A stretch of DNA of 27,596 nt from a virus. The DNA lies in IMG/VR virus record IMGVR_UViG_3300034102_001304, positions 1 to 27,596 of that record. The stretch is one strand, 5' to 3'. A model generated the notes under the pieces. The model was not told the DNA's origin and did not search any database. It saw only the letters and a list, made by a program, of their open reading frames with translations. The translations under genes and the position numbers were made by a program. Each line of letters begins with the position of its first letter. The stretch's first letter is position 1. Positions 7,928-19,488 of the stretch are shown piece by piece.

Positions 7928-8397
7928 GTCTTGCTCCGGTTGAAAATCCAAGTCCAAATAGCGCCGCCGGCAATCTTTGCCAAGAACTGCGCCAATACGA
8001 TTTGAGGCATCAGCGCCCCAAATGCCAAGGTCGGGAAGATCAACGAGTCTACGGCTGCGCCTGCCACGTTAGACCCGTTTGCCCGGTACATCCAAGATCC
8101 GCGCAACCGCGTAAACGTCGCCCAGTCGACAAGCGCAGCGGCGCTGAACGCACATGCGCTTGCCACTGCAATCTTGCCGGCAGCAGGGTTCAGCGCATAC
8201 GTCAGCAGCCCGGTCAATGCGATCAGCGCCGCCATCTGCCAAGGCTTGATGCGGACATGCAACCAGTCACGCATGGTCAGGTCAAGACCAATCAACACAA
8301 AAGCATTGACTGGCGTCACGCTTGGGCCAAACGTTGCCACGGACAAATTTGCCAAAATCATGGCGGCGGCGTAAACCAAAACGGCAGTTGCGATCAT
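7924..8397 (-). CDS. VUT/YhhQ-family queuosine-precursor (7-deazapurine) transporter
   Basis: 157 aa, strongly hydrophobic, with about five membrane helices: residues ~1-20, 28-42, 52-70, 76-95 and 110-150. The motifs VNAFVLIGLDLTMRDWLH, ALNPAAGKIAVASACAF and the GSNVAGAAVDSLIFP segment are what I expect of the VUT (DUF165/PF02592) family. Its member YhhQ imports preQ0/preQ1, precursors of queuosine and of 7-deazaguanine DNA marks. It is shorter than the usual ~220 aa, mainly at the N-terminus, as phage versions can be. ATG 8397 overlaps the stop of the DpdA-like gene by four bases. That coupling supports a supply role for the DNA-modifying enzyme upstream. Confidence 0.82.
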   Translation of the reverse strand: MIATAVLVYAAAMILANLSVATFGPSVTPVNAFVLIGLDLTMRDWLHVRIKPWQMAALIALTGLLTYALNPAAGKIAVASACAFSAAALVDWATFTRLRGSWMYRANGSNVAGAAVDSLIFPTLAFGALMPQIVLAQFLAKIAGGAIWTWIFNRSKT

Positions 8398-9107
8398 AGA
8401 AATGTGTACCTTGTTGCTGCGTTGTGAGATTCAATTCGCGCTCGCATGACTGCGGCGCGGGCTTCTTTGGTCGGTGGCAAATAGTTTCCCTTCTTCCAAT
8501 GCTGGTCTATCCCCACGTTTCTACCTATGTTCGTTGAGTCGGCGCTCGACAGCGGCAACAGAGTGAACACCCTAGGGTTGAGCATCCGCAACCCGTGCAG
8601 CTTGACCAAAGGCTCCCCGTCCGGCGTACAAACAACGCGCATCGCCTTGTCCATGCGCGCCCACCATGTCGGCGTTCCCGGCGTTGCGTACTCGCCGGAA
8701 CTACCCAAACAGATGCGCGGGTAGAACGCTGCCAACCGCTCCAGCCGGTCAAGCGATTCGTGCATGTGCCACACCGGTGCCGCAAACCAATACGGCAACG
8801 GACATTCCAGAAGTAACGCATCGTTGGCAAGTTCGCTGCCGTCAATGACATCTGGAATGATCGCAAAATCGCACGATGGAATGCGACGGCACATCTCGGC
8901 CCAAACGTAGTACTCGCGCCAGTCCGTTATTGGCTTGCCACTGCGCCAGGCCGAAAACGCGCCGTTGTCAATCGCAAACGATTGGCAGACTTCGACAGCC
9001 AACCCCAAAGGTTGCGTGTCGCAAAACGACACAAAAGCGTGCCCCCCCGTTATGGCATGGCGGGCCACCGTTTGCGGATTGATCGGTAGCCCGTGGTAAT
9101 GGATCAC
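8394..9107 (-). CDS. dpdA: DpdA-like tRNA-guanine-transglycosylase homologue (7-deazaguanine DNA modification)
   Basis: 237 aa from GTG 9107, which overlaps the upstream stop as GTGA and gives the family-like start IHYHGLPINP; an ATG at 9149 is a weaker alternative. Visible TGT/DpdA features: AIDNGAFSAW (Asp47, matching the first catalytic Asp region), DFAIIPDVIDG (80-90), a GSSGEY loop (135-140, like the substrate-binding Gly loop), KLHGLRM (169-175) and SSADSTN (Asp190, candidate nucleophile). TGTs swap guanine in tRNA. DpdA proteins do this in DNA, inserting preQ0-type 7-deazaguanines that protect phage DNA from restriction. The downstream overlapping gene is a VUT transporter, and no local preQ0 biosynthesis genes are seen, so precursor salvage is inferred. 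A 7-G run lies within codons 20-22. Confidence 0.82.
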   Translation of the reverse strand: MIHYHGLPINPQTVARHAITGGHAFVSFCDTQPLGLAVEVCQSFAIDNGAFSAWRSGKPITDWREYYVWAEMCRRIPSCDFAIIPDVIDGSELANDALLLECPLPYWFAAPVWHMHESLDRLERLAAFYPRICLGSSGEYATPGTPTWWARMDKAMRVVCTPDGEPLVKLHGLRMLNPRVFTLLPLSSADSTNIGRNVGIDQHWKKGNYLPPTKEARAAVMRARIESHNAATRYTFL

Positions 9108-9301
9108 GTTTTCGACCGTTCTGGCCAGTTGTCTGGCCTTGGATACCACTTGACGTCATCGGTTGATTCCCTGGCGCTGTACCGCGCTATCCAGTACTCG
9201 TTGTCGCTGTCTAGGCAAGTCCACGACCAGTACTCGCCGTTCCACCAGCGCACCTTGTGCTCGCCGGTGGGCCACCATCCGATGCTTGGCGGTTTTCTCA
9301 T
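9104..9301 (-). CDS. Small tryptophan-rich protein
   Basis: 65 aa containing nine tryptophans (for example GWWP at 8-11, RWWNGEYWSW at 18-27). ATG 9301 and the stop at 9104 both make four-base overlaps with neighbours, the latter with the GTG of the DpdA-like gene. The compact aromatic N-terminal half may be a small beta-sheet binding domain. I do not know its function. Tight coupling to the DpdA-like gene makes a shared role possible but unproven. Confidence 0.55.
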   Translation of the reverse strand: MRKPPSIGWWPTGEHKVRWWNGEYWSWTCLDSDNEYWIARYSARESTDDVKWYPRPDNWPERSKT

Positions 9302-15878: not shown

Positions 15879-18092
15879 GTGCTGAACTATATCGCATCTT
15901 TGGCAGTTGAGGGTGAAACTGCGTTGGTGGTGAAACAAAAAGACAACACTTGGCCGGCATATCTACCGGAAAAATGGCGCGGCGAGGCGTCGTGGTACTG
16001 CAATACCGGTAGTTTCATAGTGTCGAGATTCGTCGATGGTCGAGTGTCGGCATCTGCGTCTAACTGCACGCATTGTCTTGCGATGATGCTGGACGATATT
16101 GGCACCAAAAGCAAGACGCCGCCGCTGCCGCCGACATGGATCATGGAAACGTCGCCGGGTAACTATCAGTATGGTTATGCGTTCAACGAGCAGCCAACGG
16201 TCGGCGAGTTTTCAGCCGCCATCAAGGCCATCGCTGCCGCCGGCTACACCGATCCAGGCGCATGCAACCCGGTGCGCAATTTCAGACTGCCAGGCTCGAT
16301 CAACCAGAAGAACGGGTTTGCCTCGGTGCTGACTGAGTTCACGCCAGGCCGTGAGTACAGCGTAGAGGCTATATGCGCCGCGCTGGGCGTCACGCCAGGC
16401 GTGGCCGATACCGCCACAATGCGCCCGGTCGGCCTCGCGGACGATGGCGATGACGACGTGCTGGCGTGGATTGCCGAGCGTGGCGACCTGTTGGAGAATG
16501 CCAACGGCGAGGGCTGGTGCGGCGTCGTTTGCCCCAACGCGGCCGAACACACGGACGGTAACGCTATGGGCCGCTACAGGCCCGTTTCGCGGGCCTACAC
16601 TTGCTTCCACGGTCACTGCGTGGATGAGTGGAACAGCGCCCGGTACTTGACATGGGTGGCCGAGCAGGGCGGGCCTGACCACCAGCATGGTTTGCGCGAC
16701 GAACTGCTAGCGGTTGTGATGGCTGGCGCGCTGGGCAAGATATCGCCGACGACTGCATTCCCCGATGAGACCATCGAGATTATCCGCGAGGTCAACCGCA
16801 AAGAGATGGGCCGGTTAGAGAAGGCCGAATGGTATGAGCGCTTTGCTTATATTATGAGCGACGATGCGTACTTCGACATGATGGAACGCCGCGAGATCAT
16901 GCGCAAGTCGTTCAACGCGGTGTTTGCCCATATACCGTGCAAGTCAGTCCACGGGACGGCGAAAGTGTCGGCGTCGGTTTGCTACGATGAGAACCGTCAG
17001 GCGAAGGGCGCCCGCACGCTGCAAGGCGTCACTTACGCCGCCGGCGAGTCGGTGCTGGCCACAATGGATGGCGCCGTTTTTGGCAACCGTTGGCGCGACG
17101 CCAGGCCACCGACCGTTGAGGGCGATGCGTCACGGTGGCTTGAGCATGTCGAGCGCTTGATACCCGAGCAGTTTGAGCGCGAGCATGTGCTCGACGTGCT
17201 TGCGTATAAGCTGCAGCACGCGGATAAAAAAATCAACCACGCCGTGCTGCATGGCGGGTTGCCGGGGTCAGGCAAAGACACGCTCTACGCGCCGTTTTTG
17301 TGGGCCATCGGTCGCAGCAACGTGTCCATCGTCAAAAACGAAGAGCTATCGTCGTCGTGGGGTTATGCGTTGGAAGCGGAAGTTATGGTGATCAACGAGC
17401 TTCGCCAGGCTGAGGCGCGAGACCGTCGAGCGATGGAAAACGTCCTCAAGCCGATCATTGCAGCGCCGCCGGAATATCTGCCCGTCAACCGCAAAGGGTT
17501 GCACCCCTATAACGCGTTGAACAGAATCTGGGTCTTGTGCTTTTCGAACGAGCGCGCCGCTATCTCGAACCCCAGCAACGACCGCCGGTGGTTTTGCATA
17601 TGGTCCGACGCGCCTCGCATGACCGACGCCGAAGGCGCCGCCATGTGGGCATGGTACGAGCGGGGTGGCAACGCAATCGTTGCCGGCTATCTGGCGTCGC
17701 GGGATGTATCAGCGTTTCTGCCAGGCGCCAGCCCGCCCATGACGGAAGCAAAGGCCATCATGGTCGAACGCGGTCGGTCGGCCCACGAGGAATATCTGCA
17801 ATTGCAGATAGAGGCGCGCATAGGCGTATTCTCGCTGGGCGTGATCGCTGGCCCGTGGCACGCTATCTGCGACGCGTTGACGCAGCCAGGCCAGCACCGG
17901 ATTCACCCCAGCGCGCTCATGCACGCCCTAAATGAGGCGGGCTGGCAGGACGCCGGCCGCATCATGTCGAAGACGAACACAACGAAAAAACAAGTGTTCG
18001 TGTCCGCCGACATGTCCGCAAAGTACAGCAAGTCGCAGTTGCGCGATATGGTAGAGGCGCCAGCGGCGCCTACGGTACTGCGAGCGGTCTAG
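15879..18092 (+). CDS. Primase-helicase (AEP/RepB-type primase plus SF3/DUF5906-like ATPase)
   Basis: 737 aa from GTG 15879, 8 bases after AAGGAG (15865-15870). The N-terminal ~170 residues look like a RepB/AEP primase: METSPGNYQYGYAF and FRLPGSINQKNG are typical of that fold. A Cys/His cluster follows around residues 208-250 (CGVVCPNAAEH, CFHGHC), probably a zinc-binding element. The C-terminal half is an SF3/D5-like ATPase with Walker A GLPGSGKDT (460-468), a Walker B-like MVINELRQAE, the Asn-bearing CFSNE sensor and DRRWF with the likely arginine finger. It should unwind DNA and make primers for the polymerase encoded just upstream. Exact family names are from recognition by eye. Confidence 0.88.
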   Translation: MLNYIASLAVEGETALVVKQKDNTWPAYLPEKWRGEASWYCNTGSFIVSRFVDGRVSASASNCTHCLAMMLDDIGTKSKTPPLPPTWIMETSPGNYQYGYAFNEQPTVGEFSAAIKAIAAAGYTDPGACNPVRNFRLPGSINQKNGFASVLTEFTPGREYSVEAICAALGVTPGVADTATMRPVGLADDGDDDVLAWIAERGDLLENANGEGWCGVVCPNAAEHTDGNAMGRYRPVSRAYTCFHGHCVDEWNSARYLTWVAEQGGPDHQHGLRDELLAVVMAGALGKISPTTAFPDETIEIIREVNRKEMGRLEKAEWYERFAYIMSDDAYFDMMERREIMRKSFNAVFAHIPCKSVHGTAKVSASVCYDENRQAKGARTLQGVTYAAGESVLATMDGAVFGNRWRDARPPTVEGDASRWLEHVERLIPEQFEREHVLDVLAYKLQHADKKINHAVLHGGLPGSGKDTLYAPFLWAIGRSNVSIVKNEELSSSWGYALEAEVMVINELRQAEARDRRAMENVLKPIIAAPPEYLPVNRKGLHPYNALNRIWVLCFSNERAAISNPSNDRRWFCIWSDAPRMTDAEGAAMWAWYERGGNAIVAGYLASRDVSAFLPGASPPMTEAKAIMVERGRSAHEEYLQLQIEARIGVFSLGVIAGPWHAICDALTQPGQHRIHPSALMHALNEAGWQDAGRIMSKTNTTKKQVFVSADMSAKYSKSQLRDMVEAPAAPTVLRAV

Positions 18093-18106: not shown

Positions 18107-18129
18107 AAAAAACCCGCCAGCGGCGGGTT
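18107..18129 (-). terminator. Intrinsic terminator of the leftward 18-21 kb operon
   Basis: Inverted repeat AACCCGCC-AGC-GGCGGGTT (18111-18129). Read on the minus strand it ends in a run of six Ts (A run 18107-18112 on plus). It lies just after the last leftward gene and just after the rightward primase-helicase stop, where it also separates convergent transcripts. Confidence 0.85.
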
Positions 18130-18190
18130 AGAGGTCTAGCAGGGCCGCTAGCAGTAAGGCTAGCAGGCCGACAAGCAACGCGGTCAGCAT
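18128..18190 (-). CDS. 20-aa hydrophobic micropeptide overlapping the terminator
   Basis: ATG 18190 lies within the last codons of the methyltransferase gene (7-base overlap) and the frame ends at TAA 18128-18130, inside the terminator stem. The product MLTALLVGLLALLLAALLDL is almost entirely hydrophobic, long enough for one membrane helix. Its Leu-rich coding comes from three near-copies of CTAGCAG. The coupled start and full use of the gap argue for a real micro-gene, but 20 codons can arise by chance. Confidence 0.4.
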   Translation of the reverse strand: MLTALLVGLLALLLAALLDL

Positions 18191-18909
18191 GCAATGCGGC
18201 GCGCATAGGCCAGCGCGTCTGCTTCATTGGTGAACAGGTTTTGCCCGCCAAGGGTCGCTTGGTCGTCGCCGCGCACGCGCACCAGCCAGCCGAGCGCGAT
18301 AGGGATCACCGTGACGGTAACCTTGTCGCCCGGCCACTGCGCTGCCATAGCATCAGCGATGCCCTGAAACGTGGCGCTGCGGATCTTCCAACGGTCGGCG
18401 CTGGGTGGCAGGTTGTACCATGTCGGCAGGCTCTTCCCTGACTTCGTGACATGCCGCGCCCCTTTGCCGACAATGTTCGTCGGCACGAGCGGCGGCAACC
18501 CCTTGAGCCATAGGCAGGTGGTCTTGGTGGCCTCATGGCCAAACATCCACGGTTGGATTATCTGATCGGGCTTGCGGATGCGAGTGCTGATGATGCTCAC
18601 GGGATTCTCCACGCATATGCGTGGGATAGGCGCGTCCATGAGCATGCGAACGAACTCTAACGCCGCCGCCTGCCGACCGTCCGCCTGTTTGGCTGCAAAA
18701 TGCTTCGCACCAGAGACAGCTAGATGAGTGCATGGTGGATGCGCGATCATCAGGTCCCAGTCATCGCGCAGAATGTCGACAATGTCGCCTTGATAGTGCG
18801 GGCCCGGTCGGTCGGACGGCAGGATGTCGCATGACATAGCATCATGCCCGTGCGCGATGAAAGCATCGCGTACCGTCCCCGAGTACTCGCACGCGATCAG
18901 TACCCGCAC
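18184..18909 (-). CDS. Cytosine-C5 DNA methyltransferase-like protein with fused C-terminal domain
   Basis: 241 aa from GTG 18909. Dcm-type features: an SAM-binding N-terminus (MRVLIACEYSGTVRDAF), the IAHPPCTHLAVSG motif IV with catalytic Cys60, RICVENPVSI (motif VI), then QPWMFGHEATKTTCLWLKGL and DRWKIRSATFQGIADAMAAQW, as in short phage methyltransferases that usually end there. Beyond this, residues ~196-240 form an extra domain about 47% identical by eye, without gaps, to the small protein encoded at 19273-19488. It should methylate cytosines in phage DNA, probably against restriction; target sequence unknown. It lacks a large target-recognition region. Confidence 0.82.
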   Translation of the reverse strand: MRVLIACEYSGTVRDAFIAHGHDAMSCDILPSDRPGPHYQGDIVDILRDDWDLMIAHPPCTHLAVSGAKHFAAKQADGRQAAALEFVRMLMDAPIPRICVENPVSIISTRIRKPDQIIQPWMFGHEATKTTCLWLKGLPPLVPTNIVGKGARHVTKSGKSLPTWYNLPPSADRWKIRSATFQGIADAMAAQWPGDKVTVTVIPIALGWLVRVRGDDQATLGGQNLFTNEADALAYARRIAC

Positions 18910-19085
18910 GGTACGCGCGTCCAGTCGGGTGGCGTGCCTTCGTAATATTCGCCGTTCGCGTCTAGCTCGTCATTCCAGACATGAGCATACGTGTAGGCCT
19001 CAGCTGCGCGCCCGTTGATCCAGTCATCGGTCGATAGCTGGAATTGATAACCCTCGTCGGGTTTGTTGGTGGCATAGATGTTCAT
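18897..19085 (-). CDS. Small acidic protein of unknown function
   Basis: 62 aa from ATG 19085, which overlaps the upstream stop as TGATG. The sequence (MNIYATNKPDEGYQFQLSTD, then NGRAAEAYTYAHVWNDELDA) is aromatic and acidic with no known motif. The stop lies 13 bases inside the methyltransferase gene, so the two are translationally coupled. A longer frame upstream is mostly a shadow of the neighbouring gene. Confidence 0.55.
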   Translation of the reverse strand: MNIYATNKPDEGYQFQLSTDDWINGRAAEAYTYAHVWNDELDANGEYYEGTPPDWTRVPCGY

Positions 19086-19276
19086 CAGATGATCTCCGAA
19101 AGGGTTTGAATGATGTCGCGGCGGGTCGAGCGGGTCGGCAGCCATGCTTGCCGGGTCAACACGTAGGCGCCGCTGATAAGGCGCCATTGTTGCCACCGGA
19201 TGCGCCGCTGGCCGTTGACGGTCGCGCAGTCGCCGAGCGTGTAGCGGGCTTGATCGTGATAGAACGAGCGGGTCAT
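19085..19276 (-). CDS. Small basic protein of unknown function
   Basis: 63 aa from ATG 19276 (ATGA overlap with the previous stop). It is Arg/Gln/Trp-rich, with RRIRWQQWRLISGAYVLTRQ in the middle, and probably a small beta-plus-helix fold; the basic character suggests nucleic-acid contact. No family recognised. Confidence 0.55.
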   Translation of the reverse strand: MTRSFYHDQARYTLGDCATVNGQRRIRWQQWRLISGAYVLTRQAWLPTRSTRRDIIQTLSEII

Positions 19277-19488
19277 GCTATCCCCCCAAGGCGCAGCCAC
19301 GGGTCAACCCCGGCGATTTTATGCGCGTACGCGATCGCGTCGACTTCCAGCGGGTAGATGCGCTGGCCGACGATATTGCCGCTGTCGTCGTCGGTCATGC
19401 GCACGAGGTAGCCGCGCGCGACGGGAAAAACTTCGACGGTCAACCCGTCGTCAGGGTTGACGAACGTAGCGGTCGCGGCAATTGTCAT
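19273..19488 (-). CDS. Small protein homologous to the methyltransferase C-terminal domain
   Basis: 71 aa from ATG 19488 (ATGA overlap). Residues ~15-59 align without gaps to the last 45 residues of the methyltransferase, sharing the P-x-A-x-G-x-LVR core, a DD pair, GQ and D-A-x-AYA-x-x-IA (21 of 45 identical by my count). The pair indicates duplication, with one copy fused to the enzyme and this one free. A beta-hairpin plus helix domain is likely. Function unknown; it may be a DNA- or protein-binding module. Confidence 0.7.
   Translation of the reverse strand: MTIAATATFVNPDDGLTVEVFPVARGYLVRMTDDDSGNIVGQRIYPLEVDAIAYAHKIAGVDPWLRLGGIA

Follow-up and report, generated by a model that had tools for sequence, protein, structure and literature searches.

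The window analyzed here is a 27,596-nucleotide stretch (positions 1 to 27,596 of IMG/VR record IMGVR_UViG_3300034102_001304) from a phage whose P22-like portal is 73% identical to that of Phage DSL-LC05 of a gammaproteobacterium. The phage also encodes a DNA polymerase and a terminase and, judging from its relatives, appears to come from freshwater. A queuine tRNA-ribosyltransferase-like protein is encoded elsewhere in the window (8394-9149, minus strand; phrog_887, E = 4.6e-65) and could be relevant to modification of DNA or tRNA. At the locus of interest, a methyltransferase (MTase) gene carries an in-frame C-terminal tail and lies near a gene for a free-standing small protein. The features are as follows.

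19273-19488, minus: free-standing small protein ORF, ATG start, 71 aa; a relative of the tail, not its source
19085..19276, minus: RSFYHD-type small gene, from the ATG at 19276; homologues fill the slot described below in L083 and, spliced to the MTase end, in L085
18184-18909, minus: MTase ORF, GTG start, 241 aa
18334..18909, minus: MTase core, residues 1-192; phrog_757, predicted M.HhaI-like fold, ends AMAAQW
18187..18333, minus: fused tail, residues 193-241; 193-240 form a predicted bbba domain that belongs to the small-protein family, and Cys241 comes from the slot border
18232..18299, minus: 68-nt core identical between the tail and the L004 free gene, with diverged flanks
18128..18190, minus: hydrophobic 20-aa frame MLTALLVGLLALLLAALLDL; its start codon and the stop codon of the MTase overlap in ATGCTGA; the slot's fixed border on the downstream side
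18111..18129, minus: intrinsic-terminator-like hairpin and T run, directly past the micropeptide frame
15879..18092, plus: primase-like gene, convergent, on the downstream side of the slot and still within the region homologous to relatives

A complete methyltransferase core followed by a small-protein domain

Both ORFs singled out by a sequence-only reading, the MTase and the 71-aa protein, were found on the minus strand where it had placed them. Its claim that MTase residues 196-240 align without gaps to residues 15-59 of the small protein at about 47% identity was borne out (21 of 45 identities), and the ungapped match extends to MTase 193-240 and small protein 12-59, with a BLOSUM62 score of 120. 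When the shuffle comparison that it proposed was run, 20,000 shuffled versions of the small protein scored a mean of 22.4 against the tail (standard deviation, 4.4), with a maximum of 54. The tail and the free copies are homologous, as members of one small-protein family. A second IMG/VR record carrying the fusion junction (G001, 39,439 bp) matches the window over 27,596 of 27,596 bases, with 5 mismatches and no gap; although the two records possibly derive from shared reads, their agreement argues against a local assembly error. The in-frame fusion of MTase and tail is real.

The phrog_757 profile matched the core with an E value of 1.7e-70 (protein residues 1-195, profile positions 15-221 of 247), placing it in a family of phage "DNA methyltransferases" that includes Burkholderia phage Bcep1 gp12 and proteins of cyanophages 9515-10a and P-SSP7. 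Identity to phage records reached 65%, and the phage matches listed, 60 in number, end at residues 191-208. Two motifs, PPC at 58-60 (P58 P59 C60) and ENP at 101-103 (E101 N102 P103), are invariant across 45 sequences; we take PPC to be motif IV and EN to be motif VI of C5 MTases. In a structural model built from the 45 sequences (mean pLDDT, 87.5), strand and helix alternate through the core, and the top Foldseek matches are C5 MTases. Residues 1-199 of the model align with residues 12-327 of M.HhaI (1fjx; Z = 13.7, 3.5 Å, 192 residues), and the predicted model has a C5-cytosine DNA methyltransferase fold. By sequence, no match was obtained to the Pfam C5-MTase family at E <= 1 or from the MTase profile to PDB sequences.

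The window MTase thus shares its predicted fold and the PPC and ENP motifs with M.HhaI and other C5 MTases but is much shorter: a full-size target-recognition domain ahead of the last motif is absent, and the end-to-end alignment covers 192 of the 327 residues of M.HhaI. The sole candidate for a recognition domain in the core is a stretch of variable length, about 28 residues (roughly 148-175), as read from a MAFFT alignment of MTases and free small proteins (A2); this alignment and another with free small proteins added (A3) were misaligned by MAFFT and were kept out of the modelling. Comparison with nine close relatives gave core dN/dS values of 0.07-0.17, and the core is under purifying selection. 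Because the core aligns along M.HhaI up to the C terminus, the tail sits after a complete fold and outside the recognition position; in the predicted model, the core is M.HhaI-like and complete at W192.

Within the MTase model, the tail comprises strands at 198-204, 207-213, and 223-226 and a helix at 229-240. These are the elements of the 71-aa protein model (bbbba; pLDDT, 79.6) offset by 181 residues. Model confidence in the tail is below that in the core (block means, 50-86, with dips at 191-200 and 211-220). The models suggest that the tail would fold in the cell as an independent bbba unit on a short linker. It is uncharged (pI 6.6, net charge 0), and the two free small proteins for which charge was computed are both acidic. 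Against the L004 free gene, the tail has a dN of 0.12 and a dS of 0.29 over 48 codons, a span that includes time spent as a free gene, and the substitutions suggest at most a weak signal of selection since fusion.

The small-protein model is matched by viral models of unnamed small phage proteins (best E, 4.7e-05). No convincing relative was found among solved structures; the best Foldseek hit, the MMO inhibitory subunit 6d7k (E = 0.12, Z = 6.3, 4.9 Å), was too weak to assign a fold family. By sequence, the family gave nothing credible against the PDB (best E, 1.1), and the 71-aa protein had no family match in PHROGs. DUF2188 (PF09954) is weakly similar to the tail pattern, with two of eight members matching (best E, 0.0075); the window tail scored 13 bits (13-13.7) against a curated cut-off of 22, and none of six records exceeded the cut-off.

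Distribution and source of the tail

Scanning of viral contigs yielded 445 MTase relatives, 80 of which were kept; L001 (G001) and the window represent one and the same phage. The sequence-only reading held that the usual enzyme ends at the AMAAQW region. Nine MTases among the 80 kept (L002-L010), 88-96% identical to residues 1-192, all terminate exactly at W192. The relatives' loci examined contain 141 distinct C-terminal MTase sequences with 88 different extensions between them. The small-protein domain occurs in 1 of the 88, the window phage's own; the tail is not a general feature of short MTases. A separate pattern scan for MTase-like frames found at least 120 stretches. After exclusion of one open frame and of 16 of 120 stretches without PPC or EN in the 220 upstream residues, 101 of 103 closed frames had extensions of 1-30 residues, and neither of the 2 longer extensions was the small-protein domain. 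Searches (tblastn) of 50,697 phage records gave a single weak match to the tail (E = 0.9) and no match to the 71-aa protein, and none of 62 stretches on genome contigs that fit the small-family pattern was confirmed. L057, a candidate second tailed MTase because of its longer tblastn match (residues 1-208), was rejected: its frame stops soon past the usual end, and the domain is absent from all three downstream frames viewed. The fusion is found only in this phage lineage, represented by two near-identical records.

Window positions 18322-18187 are 87.6% identical to L004:3962-4098, which lies inside a free small gene; the MTase of that phage is tail-less. Among the genes compared, this gene is the best match to the tail DNA (40 of 48 aa; 85% nucleotide identity), and the 71-aa neighbour matches the tail at 23 of 48 aa and 60% of nucleotides. 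In DNA and protein trees of nine copies, the tail pairs with L004 with support of 100/99 in both, and a clade of tail plus neighbour was rejected (p-AU, 7.7e-52 for DNA and 7.7e-07 for protein). The tail is therefore a family member of foreign origin, a second allele beside that of the neighbour. Of the sequence-only proposal of a recent duplication and fusion, the fusion stands, with relatives ending at W192, and the duplication of the neighbour is unsupported.

The match to L004 is uneven. The 21 mismatches fall in the first 34 nt (12) and the last 42 nt (9), on either side of a 68-nt identical run; an uninterrupted run of that length arose in 1 of 100,000 random placements of the mismatches. 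An identical core with diverged ends marks the tail as a mosaic, and the core appears to have been exchanged recently with an L004-like gene, the ends being older or from another allele. Given this pattern, the similarity to L004 could stem from a subsequent exchange, and the original donor may have been another gene. Free small genes occur in L082 and L083, which have no MTase, and next to MTases that lack the tail in L004, L009, and L010; this distribution indicates that the free gene came first. Contig G005 has two different free small-protein copies, each seen at both contig ends. On the 40,968-bp contig of L098/L099, the two different free copies of one phage lie at L098 577-741 and 2214-2411, and one, just 55 aa long, has an ending like that of the fused tail.

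The accessory slot and its downstream border

The MTase gene is the last gene ahead of the hydrophobic frame, and homology to relatives resumes directly past the insert. The 20-codon frame of relatives starts before the MTase gene has ended, mostly with the overlap ATGGTAA or GTGGTAA. The frame occurs in the window, L002-L010, L015, L082, L083, L085, and L117, in phages with and without an MTase. Differences among 14 copies (91 pairs) number 439, 102, and 910 by codon position, the pattern expected of a constrained, Leu-rich coding frame; the product is probably a membrane micropeptide. A pattern scan for the frame returned 24 stretches on 23 contigs; because the pattern required a conserved frame, the counts below tell what precedes the frame and not the rate at which it is conserved.

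MTase ending QW: 8/24
MTase plus tail: 1/24, the window phage itself
MTase cut to MRVLIAC: 1/24 (L119, 4872-4952; first 7 codons left)
RSFYHD gene: 1/24
RSFYHD gene ending in MTase DAMAAQW: 1/24 (L129, the contig of L085; L085 5320-5604)
Another small gene: 1/24 (L082)
Two small genes spliced: 1/24 (L124, 6978-7292 in reverse-complement numbering; alignment confirmed)
Further small gene: 2/24, both in G005
HTH-like gene (label assigned by eye): 8/24

The stop-start overlap is 7 nt in 16 of 24 stretches and 4 nt in the other 8, the HTH-like cases. The final Cys of the fused MTase comes from the slot border, and Cys also ends the slot genes of L082, L083/L135, L119, L124, and G005. The tail allele was not found as a free gene in the slot in any of the 24 stretches. 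Three more splice or deletion products lie at the slot in other phages (L085/L129, L124, and L119). It is possible, rather than probable, that this last accessory slot is a recurrent splicing site, at which genes that come or go are cut and rejoined close to the fixed start-stop overlap. Fusions (MTase-tail, L124, and L085) and stubs (L119) would then form repeatedly, and the need to keep the micropeptide translated would hold them in frame.

Interpretation and comparison with known systems

Two rival readings of the fusion are, in our view, very improbable. Copying of the 71-aa neighbour onto the MTase would fit a gene of the same family and strand that lies about 360 bp from the MTase gene start and has 47% identity to the tail; it is opposed by the rejected tail-neighbour clade and by the closest relatives of the two sequences, which for the neighbour is L082 (90% nucleotide identity) and for the tail L004. 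An assembly artefact joining two places, to which we give even less credence, would come naturally to metagenomic records, but two of them agree across the whole window, and the joint preserves both the reading frame and the downstream start-stop overlap.

The other readings concern what the tail does. Small bbba folds include DNA-binding domains, and where M.HhaI has its recognition domain the core offers little, so that a tail setting or widening specificity could be imagined; the sequence-only reading had suggested that the tail supplies target recognition. The tail instead follows the complete M.HhaI-aligned fold, beyond its C terminus, with a net charge of 0 where the two computed free proteins are acidic, and the best PDB structures found by fold with the small-protein model all match weakly and offer no DNA-binding lead, all of which makes this improbable. 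A gain of function through recruitment, in which the tail brings the MTase to a partner (for example, that of the free protein, or replicating DNA), seems unlikely but deserves more weight. Among 37 distinct MTase C-terminal extensions of at least 8 aa, 11 carry Q[LM]x[LMI], against a mean of 1.1 and at most 6 in shuffled sequences, a class picked after the sequences had been viewed and counted over extensions several of which are mutually related. The motif resembles the bacterial sliding-clamp motif QL(S/D)LF in the part of PMC9690074 that gives it. C-terminal additions may therefore serve binding in relatives, and the motif suggests that some phage MTases (carriers include L150, L156, L234, and L142) are tied to the sliding clamp. 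The window tail lacks the motif, however, and the cores of close relatives that end without an extension are intact.

The reading that we favor as likely is that the gene is a young chimera made by illegitimate recombination, an intact enzyme with an independently folding appendage that is tolerated or binds a partner. The variable slot holds the last accessory gene ahead of the start-stop overlap, the micropeptide frame, and the terminator. Illegitimate recombination there would have joined the MTase, in frame past its last codon, to a small-protein gene, the donor being most of a free small-protein gene from another phage lineage. With all 192 residues of the C5-type MTase present, the catalytic part would be unchanged, and the enzyme most likely works like its unfused relatives, presumably by methylating DNA. 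The tail would be tolerated and may serve as a tether between the enzyme and the free small protein's partner; that the tail and the free protein share a partner is possible, as the sequence-only reading also proposed. Occurrence in one lineage and the weak selection signal over 48 codons argue against a stronger functional claim for the tail.

Neither the fusion nor the slot was described in the titles and abstracts listed for DUF2188, Bcep1, orphan cytosine MTases of phages and their recognition domains, illegitimate recombination with gene fusion, or clamp motifs. Many gene fusions are known from phages, but tail-less sisters, the free partner gene, a foreign source allele, and other products of the splicing site are rarely found together. 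The natural pair of enzymes with and without the tail lets one ask whether a new enzyme domain acts at birth. Viral composite (mosaic) genes built from segments of two families are described in the portion of Jachiet et al. 2014 (PMC4202312) that deals with them. The kind of gene is thus already known, and the window case is a well-resolved variant: compared with the composite genes in that portion of the study, its source, its joint, and a putative site of repeated splicing can be traced in close relatives.
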